A DNA stretch of 64,000 nucleotides from Gemmatimonadota bacterium (GTDB taxonomy: Bacteria > Gemmatimonadota > Gemmatimonadetes > Gemmatimonadales > Gemmatimonadaceae): positions 107,490 through 171,489 of the forward strand of contig JAJTGR010000011.1 of assembly GCA_021299375.1 (NCBI GenBank), written 5' to 3'. The notes below the pieces were generated by a model, which was not told the DNA's origin, searched no databases, and worked only from the letters and a program-made list of their open reading frames with translations. Shown here piece by piece: positions 48,401 through 51,133 of the stretch; position 1 is the first letter of the stretch, and each line of letters opens with the position of its first letter. The position numbers and the translations under genes were made by a program.

Positions 48401-49411
48401 TCAATCGAACATGCGGTCGGCAATCGCGGCGATCTCTTCGGCATCGCGCCACGCCGCCTCGAGTGCCGCCAACTCACCCTGCATGGCCTGGCGTTCGGCA
48501 TCCTCGTTCATGGCGATCTCCAGCGCGAGCCGTTCGGTCGACGTGAGCCCCAGCACGCCGACGTCGTCGTCCCAGAAAATGGCGTTCTTTCGACGGCGCG
48601 TCGCGCGCAGCGCGCTGCTCGTCCGGATGTACTGCTCGGCGTCGCCCGCCTCCGTGATGCGACGGGTGGCCTCGGAGATCTGCCCACGACTGCCGCCGCG
48701 GGCGTTGAGGTGAGCGAGCAGGGGGCTGGCGACCTGCACGGCCTGCGACCGGTCGAGGTCCAGCACGCCGTCGGCATGGGCGATGCGGAGTTGCCACGGG
48801 ACCGACCCGTGGTCAGCCAGGACTTCGAGCCGCGCGACGTGGCTGAAGCGCAGCGGGCGCAACGCACCATCCGGGGTGCGCACGTGCGCCAGCACGCGAT
48901 CGTACTGCAGTCGCGCCTCGAGGTGCTCCAGCGGCGTCTGCACCGCCGATTTCCAACGGCGGCTGCTCGTGAGTTCATAGGCCACGCCCGCCATGGCCGC
49001 GAAACTCCCGACCACGAGAGCCGCACCGCCGCCAAGGAGCGAGGCCGCTGTGGACGATGGGCCCGGGAGCCTCAACCGGCGGCGGCGAAGCCGTGACCCG
49101 TAGCGCCATGCCGCGAACTCCGGCCGCAGCGGCTTGCCGACGCGCACCAGGTCGAGCCGGTCGGCCAGCGTGGCCAGCCCGATGTTGTCGGTGCTTACCC
49201 GCACGGTCGTGCCGCGGTACAGGCGTTCGCAGGCTTCGACCGTCTCCCAGCGTTCCTCGAGCGGGGACAGGTTCCAGTTCCGGCACCGGGTGCACACCAC
49301 CCACAGGCGGCCGCGCTGGGCATCGAAGGCGAGCCGGCGCCCCACCGGAAAGGTCTCGAGCTGGTCATTGCGTCCCAGGCCGCTGTGGCAGAACAAGCAC
49401 GTCGAATACAC
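48401..49411 (-). CDS. Zinc-ribbon membrane protein, function unknown
   Basis: The open frame reaches back to 49483, but GTG 49411 has AGGAGG seven bases upstream and yields a protein starting VYSTCLFCHSGLG. CLFC and a later CTRC (about residue 42) form a zinc ribbon of four cysteines. After a polar region there is one hydrophobic segment near 125-147 (LLGGGAALVVGSFAAMAG). The C-terminal 180 residues are helical and charged, ending ERQAMQGELAALEAAWRDAEEIAAIADRMF. No family is recognised. It diverges from the double-Rieske gene and precedes the M1 peptidase on the same strand, 65 bases away. Confidence 0.65.
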   Translation of the reverse strand: MYSTCLFCHSGLGRNDQLETFPVGRRLAFDAQRGRLWVVCTRCRNWNLSPLEERWETVEACERLYRGTTVRVSTDNIGLATLADRLDLVRVGKPLRPEFAAWRYGSRLRRRRLRLPGPSSTAASLLGGGAALVVGSFAAMAGVAYELTSSRRWKSAVQTPLEHLEARLQYDRVLAHVRTPDGALRPLRFSHVARLEVLADHGSVPWQLRIAHADGVLDLDRSQAVQVASPLLAHLNARGGSRGQISEATRRITEAGDAEQYIRTSSALRATRRRKNAIFWDDDVGVLGLTSTERLALEIAMNEDAERQAMQGELAALEAAWRDAEEIAAIADRMFD

Positions 49412-49699
49412 GAACTCGCCTCCTCGTCGCCCCTGTGGTGAATGGCGTTCCCCAGGCGACCGCCTGCGGGCCCCGCCTCGCATCCCCCCTCATCGCGAAT
49501 CTGCAGCGAGGTCGCTCCCTCCGCACGGTGACGAAGGTGACAATTGGATTAACGGTGCCCGTCTTCCCCCGTCCCCGTCGCGGCAGCAACGTTTACAAGG
49601 AATCCCGAGCGTGCGCGCGCTGGCTCGCGTCGATCGCTCGCGTTCGTTGCTCGAGCCGTACCTCGCGCGCTGTTCTTCTTGACCTCCAACCGCTCCCCG
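49412..49699. other. 288-base divergent gap between the zinc-ribbon and Rieske genes
   Basis: The region must contain both promoters. I see the AGGAGG site of the minus-strand gene at its left edge and an AT-richer stretch near 49535-49555 (GACAATTGGATTAACGG), but no -35/-10 pair I would defend. No RNA gene or repeat is evident. Confidence 0.5.
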
Positions 49700-51133
49700 A
49701 TGTCCTCCGATCCCTCTCCTTGCGCGACCTGCGCCCGGCTGGACCGCCGGCAGTTCCTCACCTCGGCGTCGTTGCTGTCGCTCGGGGCCATGGTCACCGC
49801 GTCGTGCGGAGACGGGGTGCTCAGCGGCCCGGAGATCAGCCCCGGCTTTCCCGAGGAGACGCTGCGACTGGATCCGCGACAGATCACGGCGCTGCAACAG
49901 GTCGGCGGACGGACCGTGGTCACCCAGGGCGTGACGACACCGGTGCTCGTGGAACGCGTGACCAGCGGTCAGTACCGCGCCCTCTCGCTGGTCTGCCCGC
50001 ACCGTGGCACGATCGTCGCCGTGGAGCCGAACGGGTTCCTGTGCCCCAATCATGGCGCCCGCTTCGATCGCGACGGCACCTGGCTTGGCGGGCAGGCCAC
50101 CGCCGACCTCGCGCCACTGGGCGTCCGGGTCAACGCCGACGGCACGCTGACCATTGGTGGCGCCCCGCTGCCGCCGGCGCTCGCGCTCGGCGCCTCGTCG
50201 GCGGCCTTCGTGACGACCTTGGGCGGCGCGCAGCCGGCGCCGCGCACCATCGCCATCGGTAACGACGGCGGCGGCATCCTGTCCGGCCTCCAGGTTTCGC
50301 TGGCCTATGGGCCGAACCAACGCAGCGGCTGGCTCAGTGTGCAGCTCGACCAGGCGTCGGCACCCGCCGTGCTCACGCTCACGGCACAGCGCGGGACCCT
50401 CACAGCAGGCACCTACAACGCGACGGTCACGGTTGGCGCACCCGGCATCAGCAACGGCGCCCAGACCATCGCCGTGTCGCTGCTCGTGCAGGACCCGGCC
50501 GCACCGGCGGCGCTCCAGCTGTCGGTCGGGGCGGTGGCGTTCTCGTCGCCGGCGGGTACCACGCCGCCGCCTCAGACCGTGCAATGCAGCAACAGCGGGG
50601 GCGGCACGCTCGCTGGCCTCCAGGCGCAGGTGGCCTACGGGGCGACAGGCGGGCGGTGGCTGTCCGTGAGCTTCGATCGCACGTCCGCGCCCGCCGCACT
50701 CACCCTGCAGGCGGACCTGACTGGGCTGGCCGCCGGCAGCTACACCGCCACCGTCACCGTCTCGGCCACCGGCGTGGCGTCCCGCACCATCGCCGTGGTG
50801 CTCACGGTCACGCCGCAGGGGTTGGTCGTCACCCTCGCCGCGTGGCCGGCACTGGCCAATGTGGGCGGTGTGGCCGGCAGTGTGGGCAACGTGAGCGGGG
50901 GGCCTGTGGCCGTCGCTCGCACGGGGCCGACGAGCTTCGCCGCGTACTCCATGCGCTGCCCGCATGCGGGCACCACCATCAATGTGGTCAACGGCACCAG
51001 CTTCCGCTGTCCGAACCATGGCGCCCAGTTCAACAGTCAGGGGGTGTGGCAGCCCTCGCCGCAGCGCGCCGAAGACCTCACGCGCCTGACCGTGACATAT
51101 ACCCCGGGCGCCTCGACGTTGGTGGTCTCATAG
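49700..51133 (+). CDS. Tat-exported lipoprotein with two Rieske [2Fe-2S] domains
   Basis: Predicted redox protein of 477 residues. A twin-arginine signal (LDRRQFLTSASLLSLG) leads to a lipobox ending TASC (Cys36). Rieske site 1 has Cys99-x-His101 and Cys115-x-x-His118 (CPHRG ... CPNHG). Site 2 has Cys420-x-His422 and Cys437-x-x-His440 (CPHAG ... CPNHG). Between them lie two similar Ig/BACON-like repeats of about 100 residues (IGNDGGGILSGLQVSLAYG and SNSGGGTLAGLQAQVAYG). Both clusters keep all four ligands. A CATC motif precedes the Tat arginines. ATG 49700 is preferred over TTG 49679. No cytochrome b or oxygenase neighbour shows its electron partner. Confidence 0.85.
   Translation: MSSDPSPCATCARLDRRQFLTSASLLSLGAMVTASCGDGVLSGPEISPGFPEETLRLDPRQITALQQVGGRTVVTQGVTTPVLVERVTSGQYRALSLVCPHRGTIVAVEPNGFLCPNHGARFDRDGTWLGGQATADLAPLGVRVNADGTLTIGGAPLPPALALGASSAAFVTTLGGAQPAPRTIAIGNDGGGILSGLQVSLAYGPNQRSGWLSVQLDQASAPAVLTLTAQRGTLTAGTYNATVTVGAPGISNGAQTIAVSLLVQDPAAPAALQLSVGAVAFSSPAGTTPPPQTVQCSNSGGGTLAGLQAQVAYGATGGRWLSVSFDRTSAPAALTLQADLTGLAAGSYTATVTVSATGVASRTIAVVLTVTPQGLVVTLAAWPALANVGGVAGSVGNVSGGPVAVARTGPTSFAAYSMRCPHAGTTINVVNGTSFRCPNHGAQFNSQGVWQPSPQRAEDLTRLTVTYTPGASTLVVS

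Follow-up and report, generated by a model that had tools for sequence, protein, structure and literature searches.

The window, a 64,000-nucleotide stretch of a Gemmatimonadota genome, encodes at positions 49700..51133 of the plus strand a 477-residue Tat lipoprotein with the domain order Rieske1-Ig1-Ig2-Rieske2, an assignment based on the open reading frame, Pfam matches and full-length orthologues. Judging from sequence comparison and structural models, this protein is, on balance, best explained as a Tat-exported, lipid-anchored periplasmic carrier in which two independent putative [2Fe-2S] heads are mounted on an Ig stalk. Rieske proteins are normally single-domain parts within larger complexes, and a self-contained, lipid-tethered two-cluster chain would, if the proposal is correct, represent a new way of moving electrons across the space outside the inner membrane. 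The chain also directs attention to a Rieske/membrane-protein module, so far undescribed, of the Gemmatimonadota. This phylum, which has been little studied, contains both phototrophs and nitrous-oxide reducers. In the open-licence literature on two-Rieske proteins, Gemmatimonas Rieske proteins, PetC3 potentials and CxxC-containing Tat signals, we found no description of such a protein.

The reading frame starts with ATG; an in-frame TTG at 49679 is an alternative start that would add seven residues. Because the orthologues match over the full length at 52-72% identity, this is not a chance frame. A scan of the locus revealed neither a promoter nor a terminator. The earlier note had identified the product as a Tat-exported lipoprotein, and the alignment of 18 orthologues bears this out: the twin-arginine motif DRRQFL (residues 15-20; 49742..49759, plus strand), in which D15, R16, R17, F19 and L20 are invariant, is followed by an equally invariant lipobox cysteine, C36 (TAS-C-GDG; 49805..49807, plus strand), which is preceded by lipobox-like residues and is the predicted site of lipid attachment. 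The residue at position +2 after this cysteine is Gly, not Asp. The n-region of the signal peptide, 5' of the twin arginines, contains a CxxC motif (C8 and C11; 49721..49732, plus strand) that is likewise invariant in all 18 sequences. This motif had been noticed as an extra CATC; it is indeed present, but it is hardly extra, being a family-wide feature of Tat-Rieske signal peptides: C-x(1-4)-C lies directly ahead of the twin arginines in 52 of the 54 Tat-Rieske proteins of both kinds compared across the phylum (L003-L139), and one of the two exceptions is the conventional bc-type Rieske protein encoded in the same genome as the window (L006). The non-Rieske Tat proteins used as controls numbered three, too few to assess specificity. 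Given that the motif precedes the arginines, it would belong to the cytoplasm-facing part of the signal and would be cleaved off with it; that it takes part in inserting the cluster or in controlling export is speculation.

Rieske domain 1 occupies residues 52-156 (49853..50167, plus strand), with the predicted ligands C99, H101, C115 and H118, and Rieske domain 2 residues 374-477 (50819..51130, plus strand), with C420, H422, C437 and H440. When each half of the protein was scanned alone, both yielded a separate PF00355 match well above the cut-off of 20.3 bits (E = 5e-9, 36.4 bits, and E = 3e-9, 37.1 bits, respectively). The two complete Rieske centres first proposed from the sequence are thus upheld, with a residue numbering that is exact from the ATG: all eight ligands, located in the loops CPHRGT...CPNHGARF and CPHAGT...CPNHGAQF, are invariant and show the usual loop spacing in the 18 orthologues (16 of them distinct). 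Rieske 2 is the most conserved stretch of the chain: 40 of its 104 alignment columns are invariant, and the mean pairwise identity among orthologues is 76%, whereas Rieske 1 reaches 64% and the two Ig domains 57-58%. Modelled alone (pLDDT 75), Rieske 2 had only Rieske proteins among its top structural matches, namely CarAc-type ferredoxins, with Z of about 10, PetC3 and AioB; profile matches include Kuste4569, PetC3 and AioB. Together, the invariant ligands and these matches suggest that the second CxH/CxxH set would be able to bind a cluster, as had been assumed. They argue against the suggestion in the earlier note that the protein might be a folded structural derivative of a ferredoxin: with the cluster ligands invariant, a structural relic is unlikely.

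The segment between the two Rieske domains was modelled as two Ig-like domains, residues 157-266 (50168..50497, plus strand) and 267-373 (50498..50818, plus strand). In VIA-align searches, the modelled beta-sandwiches (about residues 159-264 and 269-373) match Ig/cadherin-like domains, with Z up to 11.5, the value reached by the second domain. Aligned with each other over 106 residues, the two copies show 48% identity (E = 8e-24), in agreement with the predicted duplicated beta-sandwich spacer of about 100 residues per copy. In Pfam, no Ig family exceeded its cut-off in the spacer, and the BACON and He_PIG matches were sub-threshold. The whole-chain model is of moderate confidence (pLDDT 74, pTM 0.51), and the domain orientation in it is not firm. 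A fold search with the whole chain was dominated by the Ig part and returned Ig/cadherin-type matches only; Rieske 2 was therefore folded alone. The Rieske heads are under the strongest constraint and the Ig domains under the weakest, the pattern expected for heads on a stalk, and the Ig part would probably set the reach of the distal head.

Full-length orthologues are present in 23 of the 30 genomes of the genus Gemmatimonas and in 15 of the 16 high-quality ones. Two overlapping, evenly drawn sets, 151 genomes from the order and 395 from the phylum, contained no Rieske-Ig-Ig-Rieske chain outside the genus; within this sampling, the domain order, singled out as unusual from the beginning, is confined to a single genus. 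Among 299 Pseudomonadota genomes, there were only weak single-domain matches, and a plasmid search produced no match. Nearly all members of the genus have two Ig repeats between the Rieske domains; relatives from other genera have none. The orthologue in G246 (L076:1-2814), a frame of 937 residues, has six, which increases the spacing between the matching Rieske cysteines from the usual 321 residues to 760. In G062, the one high-quality genome without a full-length copy, the orthologous locus retains a decayed remnant (L064:6642-6974) that consists of a Rieske 2 fragment with an early stop, in which CPNH is changed to CPNQ. The gene is thus dispensable in that genome, and the ligand change is what lost constraint looks like.

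In every orthologous locus, the two-Rieske gene is followed by a gene for an FmdB-type zinc-ribbon protein and then argS, with pfkB and purM further downstream wherever the available sequence extends that far. On the upstream side, there is a divergent gene for an M1 peptidase or a hypothetical protein, replaced by another gene in a few loci. No cytochrome b gene lies beside it among these neighbours (peptidase M1, FmdB-type, argS, pfkB, purM), and no redox gene was found within several genes on either side or at the orthologous loci, in line with the initial observation that an adjacent redox partner gene is missing. In all orthologous loci checked, the gene stands alone, outside any Rieske operon, and its housekeeping neighbours give no functional hint. 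The conserved divergent gene in the window (48401-49483, minus strand) has no Pfam or NCBIfam match and encodes two Cys-x-x-Cys motifs, CLFC and CTRC, at its start.

Many Tat lipoproteins across the phylum resemble the two-Rieske protein in signal layout and cluster loops; they contain one Rieske domain or two. We defined this 'd' type family of CxxC-Tat lipoprotein Rieske proteins by a CxxC before the twin arginines, a lipobox and the loops CPHxG...CPNHGA, all of which occur in the two-Rieske protein. Examples with one or two Rieske domains are L048:7845-8285, from the same genome as the window, and L052:6823-7737. Besides the CxxC motif, the 'd' type proteins share with the two-Rieske protein an ACGDG-like lipobox, the loops CPHxGT...CPNHGA and 44-53% identity, with similarity extending beyond the loops; however, they lack the Ig stalk and are often encoded in an operon, whereas the two-Rieske gene stands alone. 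Two Rieske domains without a stalk between them were found in nine chains from eight genomes of the phylum, with 107-122 residues between the matching cysteines. The earlier note, in considering two Rieske domains in one chain unusual, was right about the four-domain order but overlooked these stalkless chains.

Although not universally, the 'd' type genes often form an operon together with two genes for membrane proteins and another Tat-Rieske gene (CPHQNTALKW...QCPKHKSKY). In the first membrane protein, four histidines are invariant across 16 of 16 sequences, and in the second two are, which suggests haem b binding. This conserved operon thus encodes two small membrane proteins and two Tat-Rieske proteins, of which one is a lipoprotein, and has the appearance of a Rieske/haem b membrane module of the phylum that has not been described. 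It occurs in the same genome as the window (L048:7845-9854, on another contig, C107) as well as in L052-L062 and L065-L067. The two-Rieske gene is related to the lipoprotein gene in the L048:7845-9854 operon but stands alone.

Ig repeats of the stalk type also make up large proteins found throughout the phylum. In G063 and G065, Ig-repeat genes (L056:929-4465 and L057:4753-7071) whose repeats are similar to those of the stalk are located directly 3' of two-Rieske lipoprotein genes. The idea that such repeats mark Rieske operons was rejected, given that no Rieske gene was near any of 20 other Ig loci. Because repeats of this kind often occur away from any Rieske gene, the adjacency in G063 and G065 is no more than suggestive.

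The two-Rieske protein shares the Rieske fold and cluster ligands with PetC3-type proteins and the bc1/b6f subunits (5cxm, 9rk4, 1rie). It differs from both groups (bc1/b6f loops, CTHLGC...CPCHGSxY) in lacking the loop-disulfide cysteine pair, in the replacement of Ser and Tyr by Ala and Phe, and in its predicted lipid anchor, which takes the place of a transmembrane helix. The bc1/b6f equivalogs in NCBIfam match only far below their cut-offs (NF045928, 40.1 vs 250 bits; TIGR01416, 23.1 vs 97.4 bits). The Pfam scan detected no Rieske oxygenase catalytic domain, with its mononuclear iron site, or any other enzyme domain. The Rieske ferredoxins that serve oxygenases (CarAc, BphA3), although among the best structural matches of lone Rieske 2, are soluble, cytoplasmic, single-domain carriers, unlike the tethered two-Rieske chain. 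AioB is, similarly, a Tat-exported periplasmic Rieske electron carrier, and that of NT-26 also lacks the disulfide (PMC3758308), but AioB consists of a single Rieske domain without a stalk. The AioB family profile TIGR02694 does not match the two-Rieske protein, and its neighbours include neither aioA nor a molybdenum enzyme gene. With neither the disulfide cysteines nor the hydrogen-bonding Ser and Tyr in place, the sequence suggests that both clusters would have midpoint potentials below those of bc1/b6f Rieske proteins, which for bc1 are about +300 mV. In the yeast Rieske protein, loss of Ser and Tyr lowers Em by about 130 and 65 mV, respectively, and Kustd1480, with Phe in place of Tyr, is still at +335 mV (PMC12954380). 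NT-26 AioB, which has neither the disulfide nor the Tyr, is a working electron carrier at +225 mV (PMC3758308).

As in other Rieske proteins, cluster insertion would take place in the cytoplasm, before Tat exports the folded protein. Processing by signal peptidase II and lipidation would tether Rieske 1 close to a membrane, and the Ig stalk would keep Rieske 2 several nanometres off in a stretched chain. With Rieske 2 held at such a distance, the two heads would dock separately on their partners, and no electrons would pass between them; one head may serve a membrane-bound donor and the other, by virtue of the stalk, a distant acceptor. In this capacity, the protein is quite likely to be a two-cluster periplasmic electron carrier. 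The earlier note had considered instead a two-cluster electron wire. This would mean cluster-to-cluster transfer within one chain, for instance when the chain bends back or when molecules are stacked head to tail. The chain does contain two intact Rieske sites, and in the stalkless relatives, with adjacent domains only 107-122 residues apart between cysteines, intramolecular transfer is conceivable. However, two Ig domains with short linkers, and six in G246, separate the heads, and from the typical size of Ig domains the clusters would be roughly 8 nm or more apart. Electron tunnelling is limited to roughly 1.4 nm, a distance that the stacked Ig domains exceed, which makes such a wire very unlikely.

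The Ig part could alternatively bind a partner, a polysaccharide or the cell wall, and thereby position or display the redox heads, perhaps at the outer membrane. Large proteins of the phylum with the same repeats have a typical surface-protein design, and an Ig-repeat gene directly follows a two-Rieske gene in G063 and G065. Nevertheless, the Ig part is the least conserved region of the chain, the 20 other Ig-repeat loci have no Rieske gene nearby, and the outer-membrane sorting rule by which Gly at +2 would be read is only putative in this phylum; we regard adhesion or display as rather unlikely. A structural or sensory use, in which one or both sites would sense the redox state or bind another metal and no turnover electron transfer would occur, is consistent with the missing redox partner gene next door and with the Pfam scan, in which the chain contains no enzyme domain. 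Invariance of the eight ligands, with the usual loop spacing, in 18 orthologues and the appearance of ligand loss (CPNH to CPNQ) in the decayed G062 copy, where constraint is gone, make such a use very unlikely.

For the proposed carrier, the partners would be encoded elsewhere in the genome. A candidate, which we put forward with little confidence, is the membrane module at L048:7845-9854, whose operon encodes two more Rieske proteins. In a broader and equally speculative scheme, the two-Rieske protein might be the carrier arm of an undescribed periplasmic electron-transfer system of the Gemmatimonadota that bridges part of the periplasm, with two low-potential Rieske heads on a stalk whose length is set by the number of Ig domains (0, 2 or 6). 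Its membrane complex would combine two Tat-Rieske subunits with two histidine-bearing subunits that are putative haem b proteins.

In the phylogenetic tree, each of the two Rieske domains forms one clade across the genus (support 100/98 and 100/100), which indicates a single emergence of the four-domain chain that predates the diversification of the genus, with both heads kept since. The AU test of an internal duplication of the two heads gave p = 0.16. When all two-Rieske chains in the phylum were taken to share one origin, p was 0.055-0.07, with L034, which is not a two-domain protein, left out of the second-domain group in the final test.
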